This document shows, piece by piece, positions 2,540 through 34,220 of a DNA stretch of 64,000 bases. The stretch spans positions 20,531,127-20,595,126 of the forward strand of contig NC_088297.1 in NCBI RefSeq assembly GCF_032854445.1. The letters run 5' to 3'. The notes under the pieces are model-generated. The model worked only from the letters and a program-made list of their open reading frames with translations, made no database searches and was not told the origin of the DNA. Positions within the stretch are counted from its first letter, which is position 1. Every line of letters starts with the position of its first letter. Origin of the DNA: Liolophura sinensis. Its lineage: Eukaryota > Mollusca > Polyplacophora > Chitonida > Chitonidae. A program made the position numbers and the translations under genes.

Positions 2540-3765
2540 TCAGCGAAAGCCTGATCATTGTCAAGGGCCTGGTGGTATGTACGGACACCTCTTGCCTTAA
2601 TGTCGCAAATGAAGCCTTCAGCGAAAAATTGGATCATTGGTCTACGGCCTGATGGACTGTATAGATGCCTCTTGTCTTAATGTCGTAGTTGAAGCTTGAA
2701 GCGAATGCCAGATCATTGGACTACGGCCTGATGGTCTGTATAGATGCCTCTTGTCTTAATGTCACAGTTGAAGCTTGAAGCGAATACCGGATCATTGGAC
2801 TACGGCCTGATGGTCTGTATAGATGCCTCTTGTCTTAATGTCGCAGTTGAAGTTTGAAGCGAATGCCGGATCATTGGACTACGGCCTGATGATCTGTATA
2901 GATACCTCTTGCCTTAATGTCGCAAATGAAGCCTTCAGCGAAAAGCCGGATCATTGGTCTACGGCCTGATTGTCTGTATAGATGCCTCTTGTCTTAATGT
3001 CGCAGTTGAAGTTTGAAATGAATGCCGGATCATTGGACTACGGCCTGATGGTCTGTATAGATACGTCTTGCCTTAATGTCGCAAATGAAGCCTTCAGCGA
3101 AAAGCCGGATCATTGGTCTACGGCCTGATGGTCTGTATAGATGCCTCTTGTCTCAATGTCGCAGTTGAAGCTTGAAGCGAATACCGGATCATTGGACTAC
3201 GGCCTGATGGTCTGTATAGATGCCTCTTGTCTTAATGTCGCAGTTGAAGTTTGAAGCGAATGCCGGATCATTGGACTACGGCCTGATGGTCTGTATAGAT
3301 ACCTCTTGCCTTAATGTCGCAAATGAAGCCTTCAGCGAAAAGCCGGATCATTGGTCTACGGCCTGATGGTCTGTATAGATGCCTCTCGTCTCAATGTCGC
3401 AGTTGAAGCTTGCAGCGATTGCCGGATCATTGATCTACGGTCTGATGGTCTGTATAGATGTCTCTTGCCTTAATGTTGCAAATGAAGCCTTCAGAGAAAA
3501 GCCGGATCATTGGACTACGGCCTGATGGTCTGTATAGATGCTTCTTGTCTTATTGTCGCAGTTGAAGCTTGAAGCGAATGCCGGATCATTGGACTACGGC
3601 CTGATGGTCTGTATAGATGCCTCTTGTCTCATTGTCGCAGTTGAAGCTTGCAGCGAATGCCGGATCATTGATCTACGGTCTGATGGTCTGTATAGATGTC
3701 TCTTGCCTTAATGTCGCATTTGAAGCTTGAAGCGAAAGCTGGATCATTGGTTTATGGCCTGATAT
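2540..3765. repeat. 79-bp tandem repeat array (array 3) with two monomer types
   Basis: About 15 units of period 79 sharing GGATCATTGG(A/T)CTACGGCC, then TGATGGTCTGTATAGATGCC, then TCTTG(T/C)CTTAATGTCGCA. Two monomer classes alternate: class A carries GTTGAAG(C/T)TTGAAGCGAATGCC and class B carries AATGAAGCCTTCAGCGAAAAGCC. The order from about 2600 is roughly B A A A B A B A A B A B A A, so the array has higher-order structure. The sequence is unrelated to array 1 despite the identical period. Confidence 0.93.
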
Positions 3766-6700: not shown

Positions 6701-9226
6701 TCACGCGAGATAAATCGAAAATCACGACCGCTATTTTCCCCCCTCGAGGATTACCCTAGGTGATAATTCGTCGTCTGAAGTAAATGGTAGACAGGCGTTT
6801 GTTATTGACCGGGTACTCTGACACTAGACACGACGTCGAATCCCTCGAGGCGTGCCCAGATATAGCCAAAACAGACACGCTACTTTGGAATCACGCTAAA
6901 AAGGATAATCCACTGTCCTAATTCAGGGCCCGGGGGGAGAGGGTGGTGATTTCAAATCTCAGCTCTTTGGTGAACGGTTGAGCTATCTAATATATACCCT
7001 TTCATCCGATTTGCCGATTTGCCTCTGTGGATGAGATCAGATAATTTGCTCTGTGACCGGATATAATACAAGGCTCGTACATTTATCAGTAATTTGCGCC
7101 ATTCTTTGACTTAAATACTAAATCCCCGCTCACTCGCTGTTTGGTGTGGTGCTTTATTCCCTTTAGGATGGAAAAAGAGTGGTTTGCCCAACGCTATATT
7201 TAAAGTAGAATTATGCTAAAAGAAAGGAACATTTCCGTCTTTTCATGGCATTACAACTGCCATTATACCTGCAGTTATGGTTGCCATTATAGCTGCAAGC
7301 ATATTTGAAGAGCATTCTCCACTCCAGGGTCACCACATTTTGTGCAAAGCCTGTGATAGTTCCAATACTGAACAAGGGGTATTCAAGTTCCGTGGAAATC
7401 TCACGAGAACAGCAGCATTTTGCGAAACTGAACTTTCTGATTATTATTTACTCTTAACTCTATTCTACGCATATATCCCTATGTACAAATTCATCGGATA
7501 GGCCTACATGTAATTTGTGGAAACAAACCGAAGGAAAGTGGACATTTTTCATATTCTGGTTTACAACTGTTAAATACACTCACATCTATCAGGGAAAGTC
7601 AGGTGAAGATAAATCTGTCACCACTGCTGACCTAATCCAGTGGCTCTGATCTCGCGAGATTTCACGGGAAGTCGAATATCGCTTTTTTTCCTGTGTGTGT
7701 AATGCCGTTTCAGATTTCAATCAATCAATCAATCAATAGCCAAGACAACTTGTTCTTCATGTTATAGTACCGATTCTAACCTTTGTTCCACATGTTAACG
7801 CCCTCAAACTCTGTCGATTATATTTTACCCCAGTCCATTCTCGCCTTGTATCACATGAAGGCTACACTCTAAACAAAATTCTAATCTGCTGAATTCAGCG
7901 TGATATTATGTTTTCAGAATGAGGCTCGAGTATATTCAGTTACTACATAGTATTTTTATGCTTATTGTGTTATGAGTATTACCGTATCAGGTTACACCCA
8001 CAGAGCTTTTTCCCTGGAAGAACGGAGCAAATCTGCCATATATGACTTAATGTTTTGTAGCAATGACATAATCTATTCTGCCATCACTCAGAAAACACTT
8101 GACTTTTCCCCGTGTGTAGGAACACCTGGTCAAACTTACATAGGGAGTGGCGAGCTCACCGTGGCAGTTCATCAACAAGCTAGACGAGGTTCTACCTGAC
8201 ACAATCTCCGCCAGCTATCCCAGCGCTTGTCCAAATTCATCAACATCCCCGTAAAGAATTACCCACGCACTATTTATACATGGAGACGAGCAGGCCCGCC
8301 CTGCACATGCTACATGGTATAAACGCGATCGTTGCTGAACGCAAATTCGCCTGTACATAAAACTTCGCACACAGGAAGGAGGTAATATCGCGTTAGGTTC
8401 TTCGCTGGAGGAGTACTGAACCCTGATTGGCCACGCGCACATCACGCCTCATTTTCGTTATCCACTCCTTTTCGCTCTCGTGATGAATCCTTGGCGTCAG
8501 CTGCAGCAATCGCATGGTTTTCGCCATCGCAGAGAAGCCTGAAATTGTTGTTGTTGAAACTTCATACGGCTGTACGAGTTCCAGTCTCATTCCTCCGAGC
8601 AGGTGGCACGGTTGTGAATTTCACAACACGTGTGTTCTTTTCTTGCTTTAGAACTTTACGGACAAAACTTCATATTGTCAGTGAAACTTGAAAGAGAAAC
8701 GCATGATGGTTCGTTTAGATCATCAAATTCAACTAATACCGAGATGTAAATGTTACAAAACCGGTGGAATATTTTTTTTTACATTTGGCCTGCAATTTGA
8801 TATCAGGGCATTTGGCTTCATGGCCAACTTTACCTCTTCAAGCGTAAAACGCAATGTGTGGGCGTAAAATTATTTCCACGAAAGCTTGATCCATTAATGA
8901 TTTACATATATAAGTAAATGGTTAGCCTCTGATCAAATGTGATGATATACATATGAAAATAACCCACAGTAATTAAGTCAAATATTCCCTTTACTTATTC
9001 TTATTGTTATCGAATTACAATCAGCTGATCAGTCAATAATTTCACCGTCCTACTCAAGACATCAATCATACCATCACGCATGTGCCACGATATCATTTGA
9101 GTTTTATTTCCGGATTTGACGCTAACCTGTAATCTTGTTCTTTAATTCAGTCACGCGACCAGTCCCTCAGTCAATCAATCAATCCCGTCGCAATGACGCG
9201 TTTGGTTTTTGTTGTTGTGTAAGACA
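3766..9226. other. gene-poor region, no supportable gene
   Basis: I examined both strands and found only short ORFs without domain signatures or convincing splice contexts. Present are isolated tRNA-like B-box strings (GGGTTCGAATC near 4686, GAGTTCGATCCC near 5732), probably SINE relics, and a short (CAAT)n tract near 7716. The longest ORF (6160-6513, plus) has no recognisable features. Confidence 0.5.
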
Positions 9227-28900: not shown

Positions 28901-31900
28901 TGGGCCAGCAATGAAGAGTTTAGGATGATCTTATTTTTGGCGGACCGATGCAACCCTTACTCCATCTGGACTTATCCTACCCCAAATGTGACGCCTATAT
29001 CTGATCGATACAATACCTGAAAAACACCTGGCTGACAAGCTGTGCTTTGACAACTCTAACGTCGGTCGTTCTTTTAATTTGGGACAGAAAGACCCTAAAA
29101 GCAACATTATAATATAAGAATGGCGGATGTTTTCACTCGAGACTGTAACGAGATAATACGTGAATGTAGTTTTCTGTAATCTGATCGTATCCCGGGAACA
29201 GGGAAATTTTCTGCTAAAGTATGTCAAGCCTACCTTAAGCCTACTTCAAGCCCATGCCCTTCACTAATGAGATCTCACTTGTCTTCCACCGGTGACGTGA
29301 GAAAGTCCTTAAGTAGGTGGCCAAAAGTCGATGATCTTGTTCACCCTTTTCAGGCCATTTTGTTCTTCATAAAATTCACCGTTATGGTAAATAAAAATTA
29401 ACCAATCAATCAGTGAATTAATCGAGTGAGATTGCTTGTTATAAACTCTCTCTTCTGGGCTGTTCAGGGCATGTGGTACTTCGTTTTAGTCAATCCTGTG
29501 CTCAAAATTCGATTGGACTAGTCTGATTGATTCAGAACAGTAATGTAAAGGGACCAGAAATAATCAAACCATCGCCGTGATGGTTGATTTTGGGGCTCGG
29601 GGCAATTTCCACAAATTTGTAGAACACCGACGTCCGATTCTTAGCCTTCGGAAATGATGCACTTGTTGGCTTGGTTTTTGTTTGCTTTGTAAACCACGGG
29701 TTAGATCTCGAGCTCGTCGTTGTCCACGGTTGATTTCATTAGTTAGTACGTATATACCTCTGTTCACGCCTCCAATGACAAAAGAGTTCCTTCTTCCCGG
29801 CGACGTGCTGGTACCAGTAAGTTCACATGTCGAGCCTGAACTTTAGAATCTTAGCCAAGAACACAAAATTAATCATGAATCGATTAGATTGTTTCTTCGC
29901 ATGGTTGGGTGACTAGGACCAGATATTTGCAGACCAGGGCAAAGTAAGGACTAGATTCATTTGTTTAAGAGGCTCGGCTGTTGCGGACGCTCGTCCCAGA
30001 ATGGAGATGAATGGTGTAGCGGGTTTTTCCAGGAGGAGGTTTGGCGATTTCCGACCTCGTCCTGTCTCATTAAAACGGAACGTGCTTCAGAACCTTCATC
30101 AGCGGTTACTCGCCCACTCTTACCCGTGACTTTTAATCAGTTCGCCACGTTATCGAGTTACCTTCCAAGTTCGGATATATCGAGCTAGGCAAATTACCAA
30201 CCTTACCGACGCCATATTGAGTTTCACGGTGGCATTCCTGATCACTCAGTGGCCTGCTGTAAAGTTTCATTGGCCTCTCTAACACCTGATCTCAATCTCT
30301 CGTAGTTCACCATGTTTTTTTTTACGTTTGGATTTTACAAAATATATGAGAATTTGTTATAAATTCGGTTGCACTTTTGGAATAGCTAAATTCCCGATGG
30401 GATAGTTACCTGCTGTTACACGATTTGCAGGCTTGCTTTGTTTGAACATCAGTTTGAAGTTGAAGTGATGAACGGAAAGTGCGGAGTATTAAAACAGATT
30501 TTTTTTTTTTTTTTTTTGGTTTTTTTTGGGGGGTTTTTTTTTTGTTTGCTTTTTGGGGTTTTTTTTAGCGAGTTGTCGATATTCAACTGCCAATACAATT
30601 AGTCATATTCGCTACCAAAATTGCCTTTAGTCAGTGATACGTAACTACCCAAGCTCTCGGCATCCATATGTTCGAGATTCATATTCTTGCAAAGAAAATG
30701 AAGTTAGAACCCTTTTTCTGTTAAGCATTGACTAAAATCAATTTTTGTAGCAGGTATGATTTTACAGACAGGTGAATATAGGCGACTTGTTAAATGAAAT
30801 AGCCTGCAGTTTAGATACTCACAACGCATTATCGTTGGTCATCTAAAGACTGGATACAGCGCTTTGTTTATTCGATTAACAGGGTCAGGCGACAAATATT
30901 TTACTTAGATTGAAGATTAAATTTGTACACATGTATGTATCGTAAATCATCAGACATAAAGACTATGACGGTGAAAGAAAATTTCAAGAAAAGGATGCTT
31001 CGACAAATTGTAAACGGGGCCGTAATTATGGACTTAAATCAGAAGATTTACAACGTACCTGGCATGGCGCTGTTGTTTACGTTTGGCTCCTTCCGCCCAT
31101 CAATCCGACATATAAATGGGTACGTTTTTAAATGAGTAAATGAATTCGATTAGCCATTTCGCCTTGAAGTGGAGCGGTTTGTCAGGTATAAGGTCTGTGG
31201 TTTCCTCTGGGCACTAAGGTTTCCTCCGGGCACTCCCCTCTTATAAACTTGACCTTTGCCCTGAGTGAAAATTCTTGAGCATCGATCAGTAAATCAATCG
31301 ATCGATTAGCCAATTAACCATTGATTACTGTCGTTTCAGAACTGAGCCAAGCGTTCAGCCACTTTGACAAGAACCACGATGGCAAAATCTCCAGCGACGA
31401 GTTGGCAAGCGTTATCAAAATACTGCGATTTAACATCTCTGAATCAGAAGTGGAAGAAATGATCAGAATAGTGGATAAAAACGGTGAGTATCGATATATG
31501 GTTACAGTCGTCGATAAAAGGTGATTATGGAGAAATGATCACAATAGTGGATAAAAACGGTGAGTATCGATATATGGTTGCAGTCGTCGATAAAAGATGA
31601 TTATGGAGAAATGATCACAATAGCTGATAACGACGGTAAGTACAAGGAAATGATTACTATATTGGATAAAAACGGTGAGTATTCAGAAATGATTGTAATC
31701 GATGAAAAAACGGTGAGTATCCAGAAATGATTGCCATTGTTGATAAAACCGTGAGTATCCAGAAATAATTGCAATCGTTGATAAAACCGTGAGTATCCAG
31801 AAATGACTGCAATCGTTAATGAAACCGTGAGTACCGGAACATGATAAAGATATATTGGATAGAGGAAGTAATTGGGGAAAAACAAACCCGTTATCGGCTG

Positions 31901-34220
31901 ATTAAAATATTCCTTTAATGTTCAGCCTATTTATTCCTGTAATATTCAACTTATCGCGTTGAGTTCAAGCCCAGGGTCCAGTTTCACGAAGCTCTCTTAA
32001 CGTTACGAGCTAGCAACTGCAATGACGATGTAATGCGTACAGTACAAGGCCAGCTTGCACAAAGCCCTCTTAACATTACTTAGCACGTAACTACCATGGC
32101 AACCAGGACTGTAGGCATTACGTCGCCATTTAAATTACGTGCTCTTAACGTTAAGAGAGCTTCGAACAAGTGGACCCTGTTTGACAAGGTAGATAAGTGA
32201 ACGTAACGTTCAGAGTGCTTCGTGAAACCGTGCCCAGCCCTTGCTTGCTTCCTCTCCGATCGTACGTGGGAAGGTCTCCCAGTAGGATGCGGATGGTCGT
32301 GAGTTTCCCTGAGGCCCTACCTGGTTTCCTCCCAGCATAATGCTGGTAACCGTCCATAAGTGAAATATTTAGAAGTATGGCGTAATACACCCATCAAATA
32401 AATAAATAGATAAAGCCTACATTTTAGACATCCGTTTTAGATTCTCAAAGGCTCTAAAGGGTAGTGTTTTTGGCTTTTTCCTATGTTTTGCATGCTATGG
32501 TTCTTCCAATCACTATCAGGTCACGGCTTGAGACACTCCTAAATATGTCCAACCGCTAGTCACGTTTGCCTTGCTTCTTTTCAGAAAATGGCTTTGTTGA
32601 CTACGACGAATATTTAAGCCTGATGCGAAGGTTTTCCAAAAACACACCCAACCGAGACGTGGACGAAAAGACGCTGGAAGCGTTCCGGGTGTTCGATCTG
32701 GATGGGAACGGATTCATCGATCGACAAGAGCTACAATGTGTCATGAAGACTCTGGGCGAAAACCTCTCTGAAGATGACGTCAAAGAGATGTTCTCAGAGG
32801 CCGATTTAAACGGCGACGGCAAAATAGACTATAAAGGTATATATATATGCTGACAATTGCGATATGCAGTTTTAGCATCTATATAATTTCATTTTAACGT
32901 TTAAGACAATTACATTTTGGTAGATCGTTTCTATTGAAGCCACTTGTCCAATTATCCAACACCTTAGTAAAGCTCAGCAGTAAATTTTTATGTACTTCTA
33001 AATTTATTGAATAAATTATTGCAATTTTTGGAATTGATCTTCCATGACATACACCGGCCCCGATAGCACAGTTGGTAGAGCGTCTAACATGTTTACATGC
33101 ACTCTAAGGATTCCTTCGTCGTCATATGTCTGAAAAATTGTATAATACGACGTTAAACCCCAAGCACTCACTCACTCATTCCATGGCATACAGTGGATCT
33201 ACCATAAGTACTATTGGTTATCTATATGAGGTTTTTATTTTATTTTCTGACGAGTTCGAATCCATTTCTAGCTTGGATTCGCCCAGCCATAAACTCTCAC
33301 AAATGTGGTATTTAAAATTTCAGTGATATGAACCATAGTGCTGGCCGAGCGCTCTTCCGTGTCTCACTCAAAACCAATAAACCTTAACCCGTGAAGCTGT
33401 TATAGCTAAGCTGTAGTCTTACCTCAGGGATTTAACGAGTGTGTGGAGAGCTCTGCTGTGTTCTTATGACCCTGGAACGAAGACTACGAAGCTGTCAGAA
33501 TCAAGTCAAACTTAGGCTTAACTTAGGCAAAATTAGATACGGCGCAATACTTGGCTTTACCTTCGGGTATGTTTACTTCAATATTGAGAGTCGTTTCACT
33601 CCTTCACGACAAGAGTTTAAGTTCAAATGTAAGTTCATGAATAATGTCGAAAGTTGAGGCAAGTAAAATTGTTTTCTTGCAATACGTTGACCGTTTGCCC
33701 GCGACATAGCAAAGTCAGAATTAAACAATAGATTACACAGCTTATGTCCGAGTCGCTGTAGATGGGGAAAGGTTCTTTCTTCCTGTGCGGTTATACATGG
33801 GAAGCTCTACTGCAACCTGCGGATGGTCGTGAGTTTCCCCCCGGGCCTAGCTAGGTTTCCTCCCACCGTAATACTGGTCGCTGTCGCATAAGTGAATTAC
33901 TCTTGAGTATGGCATAAAACACTAGCCAAATAAATAAACAGATCGTCAATTAGATCTGTGGCGTGTGAACCATGAACTTGACCACCGTCATTAACACAAA
34001 AGGATAATTGCTCAAAAGTGTTTTAAAATCCAAGTCAGGCTTTGTATCTTAATACAATTGTTGGCCTAATACAAAACAAATGGGACCAAACCTAATACCG
34101 AGCTTATTAATACACTTTCGAATAAATGGAACCTGGAACTAAATAAGTAAATAAATGGTACATTTCTCCATTCTCCTTTTATTTGCAGAGTTTTCTCGAT
34201 TAATCTCCCACTTGTCATAA
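22922..34220 (+). CDS. calmodulin-like four-EF-hand protein (five exons)
   Basis: Exons 22922-22963, 24085-24223, 31340-31483, 32585-32836 and 34189-34220, all GT-AG, with phases 0, 1, 1, 1 matching throughout; about 202 residues ending in TAA. The first 60 residues are basic and Ser-rich. Four EF-hands follow with canonical loops: DKNHDGKISSDE, DKNENGFVDYDE, DLDGNGFIDRQE and DLNGDGKIDYKE, with D at position 1, G at 6 and E at 12 in each. EF-hand proteins of this layout are cytosolic calcium sensors, so it probably binds four Ca2+; any target is unknown. It is longer than calmodulin (about 149 aa) because of the N-terminal extension and diverged linkers. It is convergent with the minus-strand ankyrin/EF-hand gene, which has the same intron phases. 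The first exon is the least certain. A possible poly(A) signal AATAAA is at 35156-35161. Confidence 0.8.
23799..24026 (+). mobile_element. SINE-1 copy, 3' truncated, in intron 1 of the calmodulin-like gene
   Basis: Begins with the tRNA-like head: GACCGGCCCGGATAGCACAG, then A-box TTGGTAGAGCGTCC and B-box-like GGATCAATCC. It runs through the body (ACTTCCTCGCTTGGCGTTCA, GCTTACTTGCCTTCGGTAAG) and stops at TCAGTGATGCAGCAC, losing the conserved tail. Its end lies only 58 bases before exon 2. Confidence 0.9.
24085..24223 (+). CDS. calmodulin-like gene, exon 2 (Ser/Lys-rich N-terminal segment)
   Basis: Acceptor TTGTTGTTGCAG, donor TTAG/GTAAGAC; phase 0 in and phase 1 out. It encodes 46 residues: a lysine-rich start (SKSKNKKKQKD) and an acidic/serine part (SVSDIESFNSDMS). 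No known domain. The segment SVSDIESFNS resembles SLASLESYQS in the corresponding exon of the ankyrin/EF-hand gene. Confidence 0.72.
25118..25205 (+). mobile_element. tRNA-like SINE head fragment
   Basis: A-box-like GGGCTAATGGTTAGAGG and B-box-like GCAGGTTAAATCCC, spaced as in a tRNA-derived promoter. No true tRNA fold is evident, and a C-run follows directly. Confidence 0.45.
25837..26018 (+). mobile_element. SINE-2 copy (5' truncated)
   Basis: Starts in GTCCAGCTCATGCTGGCTTC, continues through the CCTGCGGATGGTCGTGG core and CCACCATAATGCTGGCTGCC, and ends in TAAGTGAAATATTCTTAAG and an AAATAATTAAAT tail. Confidence 0.9.
31340..31483 (+). CDS. calmodulin-like gene, exon 3 (EF-hand 1 and start of EF-hand 2)
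   Basis: Acceptor GTCGTTTCAG, donor AACG/GTGAGTATCG; phase 1 on both sides. Encodes LSQAFSHFDKNHDGKISSDE (helix E and loop of EF-hand 1), its F helix, and the E helix of EF-hand 2 up to VDKN. The intron splits the second loop after its third residue; the glutamate codon is completed by exon 4. Its 3' end together with the donor has been tandemly amplified in the following intron. Confidence 0.92.
31456..31850 (+). repeat. 38-bp tandem array made from the exon-3 end and its splice donor
   Basis: The unit is the last 28 bases of exon 3 (GAAATGATCAGAATAGTGGA, then TAAAAACG) plus the first 10 intron bases (GTGAGTATCC type). Besides the genuine donor at 31484, donor-like GTGAGT or GTAAGT sites begin at 31560, 31636, 31675, 31713, 31751, 31789 and 31827: spacings of 76, 76, 39, 38, 38, 38 and 38. 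The two 76-bp steps contain a further diverged unit. About ten units in all. The exon-proximal units are the most exon-like and the distal ones the most diverged. Confidence 0.93.
31974..32177. mobile_element. MITE-like element with terminal inverted repeats
   Basis: The left end GGGTCCAGTTTCACGAAGCT, then CTCTTAACGTTA, is matched by the reverse complement of the right end (TAACGTTAAGAGAGCTTCGA, then ACAAGTGGACCC). A further partial end with the same motif (GTGCTTCGTGAAACCGTGCC) lies at 32215-32235. No transposase is present and no target duplication is clear. Confidence 0.65.
32241..32412 (+). mobile_element. SINE-2 copy (5' truncated)
   Basis: CGTACGTGGGAAGGTCTCCC, then GATGCGGATGGTCGTGAG and CCCAGCATAATGCTGG, ending CCATCAAATAAATAAATAG. 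Lies in intron 3 of the calmodulin-like gene. Confidence 0.88.
32585..32836 (+). CDS. calmodulin-like gene, exon 4 (rest of EF-hand 2, EF-hands 3 and 4)
   Basis: Acceptor CTTCTTTTCAG, donor AAAG/GTATATAT; phase 1 on both sides. Completes the second loop (ENGFVDYDEY), carries a 25-residue linker, then EF-hand 3 (DLDGNGFIDRQE) and EF-hand 4 up to DLNGDGKIDYK. The intron falls just before the position-12 glutamate of loop 4, which exon 5 supplies. Confidence 0.93.
33053..33179 (+). mobile_element. SINE-1 copy with large internal deletion and target-site duplication
   Basis: The head ACCGGCCCCGATAGCACAGT, then TGGTAGAGCGTC, is fused directly to the tail (CTAAGGATTCCTTCGTCGTC, then CGTTAAACCCCAAGCACTCA). 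It is flanked by TCCATGACATAC (33041-33052) and TCCATGGCATAC (33180-33191), a 12-bp duplication with one mismatch. Lies in intron 4 of the calmodulin-like gene. Confidence 0.88.
33780..33944 (+). mobile_element. SINE-2 copy (5' truncated)
   Basis: GCAACCTGCGGATGGTCGTG, then TTTCCTCCCACCGTAATACT and TAAGTGAATTACTCTTGAGT, ending CAAATAAATAAACAG. Lies in intron 4 of the calmodulin-like gene. Confidence 0.88.
34189..34220 (+). CDS. calmodulin-like gene, terminal exon 5
   Basis: Acceptor CTTTTATTTGCAG in phase 1. It supplies the position-12 glutamate of EF-hand 4 and then FSRLISHLS and TAA, a short terminal helix as in calmodulins. The ankyrin/EF-hand gene ends with an equivalent short exon (FEKLFENLKPSLP) at the same intron position, which supports both models. 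Confidence 0.85.

Follow-up and report, generated by a model that had tools for sequence, protein, structure and literature searches.

The analysed stretch of DNA (hereafter the window, 64,000 nucleotides in full) belongs to a chiton genome first published as that of Liolophura japonica (PMC11068029, in part), a species assignment later corrected to L. sinensis by the authors (PMC12441733). It carries three coding exons of a calmodulin-like gene, referred to here as exons 3−5; neither exons upstream of exon 3 nor N-terminal start exons were found, and the numbering is nominal. Joined, exons 3−5 encode a calmodulin-like protein in which the loop of EF-hand 2 is complete. With a query containing one extra glycine, Pfam EF-hand models match this protein far above the cut-off, and among the best 60 of 604 solved relatives calmodulins and calmodulin fusions are the closest. 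Four EF-hands in a calmodulin-like order and the shared intron in EF-hand 2 place the gene in the calmodulin family. The window also harbors an inverted EF-hand paralog (L015), which has the same intron position, lacks an array of the kind described below and is the sister of the window gene in the tree (support 99/98). Coordinates of all features are collected in Table 1.

Table 1. Genes, repeat arrays and splice donors in the window and in the two paralogous loci (a slash marks the splice junction or the split of a codon).
Feature	Position	Strand	Details and source
Exon 3, EF-hand 1 and start of EF-hand 2 loop	31340−31483	+	acceptor TCGTTTCAG, donor ACG/GTGAGT, last codon split G/AA
Exon 4, rest of EF-hand 2, EF-hand 3, most of EF-hand 4	32585−32836	+	frame reading
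Exon 5, coding part, TAA end	34189−34220	+	sequence, frame reading
38-bp minisatellite, 10 units, exon 3 end into intron 3	31455 to about 31860	+	TRF, unit split; one genomic place found
76-bp higher-order repeat, 2.5 copies, across exon/intron junction	31455−31642	+	TRF; identities of units 1/3 and 2/4
Authentic 5′ splice site, unit 1, ACG/GTGAGTAT	31484−31489	+	GTRAGT scan, donor scores, frame
Degenerate donor, unit 2, AAG/GTGATT	31521−31526	+	donor scores
In-frame TGA on read-through from exon 3	31522−31524	+	frame reading
Extra donor, unit 3, sequence as authentic donor	31560−31565	+	GTRAGT scan, scores
Extra donor, unit 5, ACG/GTAAGT	31636−31641	+	GTRAGT scan, scores
Extra donor, unit 6, ACG/GTGAGT	31675−31680	+	GTRAGT scan, scores
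Extra donor, unit 7, ACG/GTGAGT	31713−31718	+	GTRAGT scan, scores
Weaker extra donor, unit 8, ACC/GTGAGT	31751−31756	+	GTRAGT scan, scores
Weaker extra donor, unit 9, ACC/GTGAGT	31789−31794	+	GTRAGT scan, scores
Weaker extra donor, unit 10, ACC/GTGAGT	31827−31832	+	GTRAGT scan, scores
Inverted EF-hand paralog L015, same intron position, no array	39877−43305	−	last exon from sequence only
L036 array, 25-bp unit, behind exon 3 of calmodulin paralog	contig C6:9392500−9402000, locus positions 7183−8253		tandem-repeat analysis
L039 (also L025) array, 41-bp unit, across corresponding donor of calmodulin-like gene	contig C3:11896000−11905900, locus positions 3047−3700		

The end of exon 3 and the beginning of intron 3 are occupied by a minisatellite, for which Tandem Repeats Finder (TRF) reports a 38-bp period with 10.2 copies (score 287, 31455−31845), an overlapping 76-bp period with 2.5 copies (score 320, 31455−31642), and additional 115-bp and 39-bp periods. 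The array starts 29 bp upstream of the real donor, inside exon 3. Cutting it at the donors yielded ten units, nine of them 37−39 bp long and the last with an arbitrary end, each consisting of about 29 exonic and 9 intronic bases. The first-pass annotation had described a row of duplicated donors formed by about ten copies of a 38-bp minisatellite unit with 28 exonic and 10 intronic bases. The minisatellite at the genuine donor, its period and the number of units stand; the partition of the unit had to be adjusted, and in place of a single 38-bp unit there are units of 37−39 bp plus a higher-order repeat of 76 bp. Identity is 97% between units 1 and 3 and 95% between units 2 and 4, which suggests that a block of 76 bp including the end of the real exon has probably undergone a recent duplication. 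The array does not appear to be a dispersed element, as a search of the genome (609,464,459 bases in 632 contigs, with common words skipped) found it at a single place. It is also unlikely to be an artefact of assembly, given that HiFi reads averaging 8,347 bp underlie the published genome (PMC11068029, in part) and the array is about 400 bp long.

GTRAGT is present in eight of the ten units, the donor hexamer being absent from the other two, so that the authentic donor at 31484 is followed by exactly seven extra ones; at least seven had been expected from the first reading. A check of donor strength over the array, also proposed at that stage, was made with a human donor matrix, applied here to a chiton, and with U1 pairing energy: the donors at 31560, 31675 and 31713 are predicted to equal the real one and that at 31636 to be about as good, pairing energies of the four being −11.3 or −10.7 versus −11.3 kcal/mol for the real donor. 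The donors at 31751, 31789 and 31827 score lower because they have C instead of G at position −1. Out of 4092 plus-strand GT sites in the window, those scoring at least 8 are most densely clustered in the 400 bp that begin at 31484, which contain 6 of them.

Reading through from exon 3 into the array meets a TGA at 31522, as the first-pass annotation had it, and its claim that distal donors truncate the protein within EF-hand 2 holds in that every alternative donor checked ends the frame in or just after the loop. Use of the degenerate donor at 31521 would shift the frame and lead to a stop shortly past the junction. All predicted extended isoforms thus contain a premature stop, one of the features expected of a poison extension (AS-NMD). 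Because only the first donor leaves the frame intact, its productive use is likely the reason why the window gene survives. We also considered whether the units could be read as micro-exons (CAG...GTGAGT) and rejected this by eye, as CAG lies about 12 nt after the donor in the later units and a pyrimidine tract is absent. Nor did inspection by eye reveal a donor in one copy paired with an acceptor in the next, the arrangement expected of intron gain by tandem duplication.

Searching the genome with a protein query returned at least 62 exon matches, and a survey of splice junctions was carried out for the calmodulin-family genes of this one chiton genome. Exon 3 was located at 29 loci and exon 4 at all of them but L040; L028 and L033 were excluded when the script recognised no donor, which left 27 scored exon-3 donors. 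Arrays lie across three of the 27, namely those of the window gene (the index case), L039/L025 and L036, a fraction that would become 3/26 if L045 were set aside, its donor following a shorter exon piece and probably belonging to a different intron. At the remaining 24 donors there was no repeated exon end, and the probe score was not above the shuffled maximum. No arrays were found at the 3′ splice site of exon 4 (0/26), the 5′ splice site of exon 4 (0/26) or the 3′ splice site of exon 3 (0/27), 0/79 in total, with edges of these junctions taken from the ends of tblastn matches and hence approximate. The exon 3 ends of L011 and L028 have probable GC-AG donors (GATG/GCAAG in L011 and a similar one in L028), in the intron corresponding to intron 3 of the window gene.

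The two arrays beyond that of the window gene are new, and units, lengths and intronic parts of the arrays are unlike each other. In L036 the unit is the exon end followed by GTAAGA, present in 3.9 copies at 7183−7279 and in 30.9 copies at 7482−8253, and exon 3 is also partially copied over longer stretches, at 7300−7377 and 7401−7483; together with the authentic one, there are 22 donors of the form [AG][CT]GGTAAG. In L039/L025 we recognised 13 copies with five GTAAG donors, the authentic one counted, and the array is interrupted by a dispersed repeat that is also present in the window. The exon 4 acceptor lies at about 8880 in L036 and at about 4300 in L039. In a tree of 27 rows, placing the three array-bearing genes takes three changes, and starred branches force no fewer than two of them. 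This placement, taken together with the differing units, lengths and intronic parts, favours the view that the three arrays arose separately.

Donor-bearing arrays were also sought genome-wide. A triple GGTGAGT/GGTRAGT pattern occurs at 3745 places versus 2490 in the reversed control, and a triple GACGGTRAG pattern at 115 versus 208; since these place counts are inflated by long arrays, no clear enrichment is claimed, and as the two patterns disagree with respect to their reversed controls, we rejected a general rule that minisatellites carry donors. Among the matches listed for the GACGGTRAG triples, L036 was the only one of the examined calmodulin loci. In the 260,120 bp examined, the consensus donor score reached at least 8.5 in 3 of 45 distinct arrays versus 1.35 expected, two of the three being the halves of the L036 array; consensus units of the window and L039 arrays score 5.2 and 5.6, respectively.

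Other repeats are common in the window, where arrays with a period of at least 15 and at least 2.9 copies make up 7.6% of the sequence; further long minisatellites were detected by TRF at 2533−3763, 36172−36745 and 56120−56550. A dispersed repeat starting with AAGGATTCCTTCGTCGTC is found at 33110−33178, 52569−52637, 55126−55194 and 20063−20122. A SINE-like repeat with a AAATAAATAAA tail, recognised by eye, lies at about 32290−32410, 33820−33940, 36820−36940 and 37900−38060, and its copy in intron 3 contains AATAAA signals and a GTGAGT at 32299. At L044 (7863−8879) there is an 84-bp array, the units of which contain AAGGTAGGT/AAGGTAAGT, with no exon recognised beside it.

The recurrence at the exon-3 junction is suggestive, not proven. 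The contrast between 3/27 and 0/79 corresponds to a hypergeometric P of 0.015 (calculated by hand), or about 0.06 without the index donor, from counts that are small and post hoc. A rate of 45 arrays in 260,120 bp predicts 0.30 cases of an array edge lying no more than 59 bp from one of 29 donors, so that at least three arrays have P = 0.003 and at least two without the index gene P = 0.03, in a test that is likewise post hoc, relies on regions chosen for EF-hand genes and assumes 29 donors where 27 were scored. Three arrays at one junction therefore exceed the simple rate, which hints at a bias there: the EF-hand 2 loop end plus donor might be prone to tandem duplication, with arrays recurring at this site. 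Despite the two tests we regard this explanation as a possible but doubtful one, given not only the nature of the counts but also that GACGGTRAG-type arrays are not enriched genome-wide and that the 24 negative donors are without trace of small duplications. Moreover, tolerance at 5′ but not 3′ splice sites could yield part of the contrast. At an acceptor, an array would introduce false AGs ahead of the true one and is hence expected to be less tolerated, which would fit the 0/53 acceptors, but not the 0/26 exon 4 donors.

A second explanation is the one put forward in the first-pass annotation, a tunable donor-competition or poison-extension device, in which the row of U1 sites would direct an adjustable fraction of splicing towards transcripts with a stop and thereby set the level of a calcium sensor. 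Consistent with it, the U1 pairing energy of four extra donors is equal or close to that of the real one, all extensions are truncating, the design is common to three genes of one family, and conservation is slightly higher in the donor columns than elsewhere in the unit in all three arrays (mean conservation of the donor 7-mer versus the rest 0.90 vs 0.82 in the window, 0.912 vs 0.878 in L036 and 0.868 vs 0.864 in L039). However, in none of the arrays is the donor window the most conserved one, its rank being 9th of 38, 11th of 25 and 25th of 41 circular windows, respectively; the hexamer is absent from two of the ten window units, C occupies position −1 in the last three, and 24 of the 27 donors do without an array. 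Judged from the copies of one species, conservation within units gives no clear sign of selection on the donors. With donor columns so little better kept, neutral slippage, which the same annotation had named as the alternative, seems to fit better, and the device appears unlikely. Still further from probable is its extended form, according to which rows of EF-loop-plus-donor cassettes would have evolved repeatedly as U1 landing platforms, copy number setting the amount of calcium sensor in a convergent, length-tunable splicing attenuator.

The region of the window array folds better than 100 shuffled sequences (z = −3.62). Secondary structure hiding the extra donors was nevertheless rejected as a general explanation, because the first donor stands out in predicted accessibility in L039 only (0.039 vs 0.0008−0.025 for the others), but not in the window (0.032 vs 0.0007−0.10) or in L036 (0.020 vs 0.006−0.21).

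Stops are absent from the exons read, that is, exons 3−5 of the window gene and exons 3−4 of L036 and L039. In simulations that ignore indels, the chance of no stop near the divergence of the copies (0.17, 0.116 and 0.135 per site for the window, L036 and L039) is 0.082, 0.243 and 0.196, respectively. It rises to 0.44, 0.53 and 0.52 at 5% substitution, and the argument from open frames thus hinges on the age of the arrays. That the arrays reside in genes losing function, where truncation by read-through would be harmless and where open frames prove little if the arrays are young, is nonetheless highly improbable in view of the frames being open in the exons read of all three genes and of the EF-hand model scores of the window gene, obtained with the query noted above.

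We therefore turn to the reading that we prefer, with a probability of about 0.6, namely that these are recurrent passive minisatellites, presumably tolerated because the exon-anchored donor is the one selected, some truncated transcripts arising by leakage. In this scenario, small tandem duplications over the exon-3/intron-3 junction would seed a minisatellite at the 5′ splice site, which would subsequently grow into the intron by slippage or unequal exchange. The anatomy of the arrays, their units and their places in the tree suggest that a similar event took place separately in at least three calmodulin-family genes. The arrays would be mostly passive, the first copy leaving exon and donor intact, and from the intact reading frames we infer that the spliceosome mostly uses the exon-anchored donor. 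Leakage to downstream copies may produce early-stop transcripts to be removed by nonsense-mediated decay, and copy number may thus slightly lower the output of the gene. When equal donors compete, the intron-proximal one is reportedly often favoured, a rule credited to Eperon and colleagues and to Reed and Maniatis, so that tolerance of the arrays needs explanation. SRSF1 shifts the choice to the intron-proximal donor, and hnRNP A1 is cited for choice of the intron-distal one (PMC5585400, in part).

The closest precedent appears to be the minisatellite of human IFI6 (6-16, G1P3), reportedly described by Turri, Cuin and Porter in 1995, the units of which are 12 bp long and keep the frame. Like it, the window array spans an exon/intron junction and has consensus donors in its units, and the chiton units hold several donors. 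By contrast, the chiton units are 38, 41 and 25 bp long, read-through in the window gene truncates the protein, three paralogs have separate arrays, and the copies are predicted donors. In IFI6, two units further downstream in the repeat serve as donor sites, so that three mRNA species arise (PMC4526556, in part). Intron gain by tandem genomic duplication, as treated in part of PMC4974935, also involves tandem duplication of splice-signal sequence, but in the chiton it is a donor already present that has been multiplied, within a shared intron, and no new intron is seen. Human EF-hand loop exons have strong splicing enhancers, with enhancers in loop codons and introns that split the loop (PMC9177970, in part). 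The chiton intron likewise splits the N-terminal half of the EF-hand loop, and the donor-bearing 38-bp units comprise the first codons of the loop plus the donor, whereas tandem donor arrays are not reported for the human exons in the available part of that paper. The CeRep25B minisatellite of C. elegans, linked to multiple splicing decisions (PMC4039745, in part), is similarly intronic and associated with alternative splicing; unlike the arrays of single chiton genes, it occurs in many introns and, in that part of the source, is not described as splice donors. In the open-licence literature we found no paper on calmodulin-gene or VNTR arrays at splice junctions, nor for molluscs.

These loci suggest that a minisatellite can originate across a 5′ splice site and remain there. 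In three natural genes, between a few and about twenty donors of similar or identical sequence come after the real one. The arrays thereby constitute a natural experiment on the choice of an exon end when donors are equal, in a species for which RNA-seq data from five tissues (SAMN35319765 to SAMN35319769) have already been published (PMC11068029, in part). If minisatellites do arise and persist at 5′ splice sites, the output of coding genes would be open to rapid length mutation.
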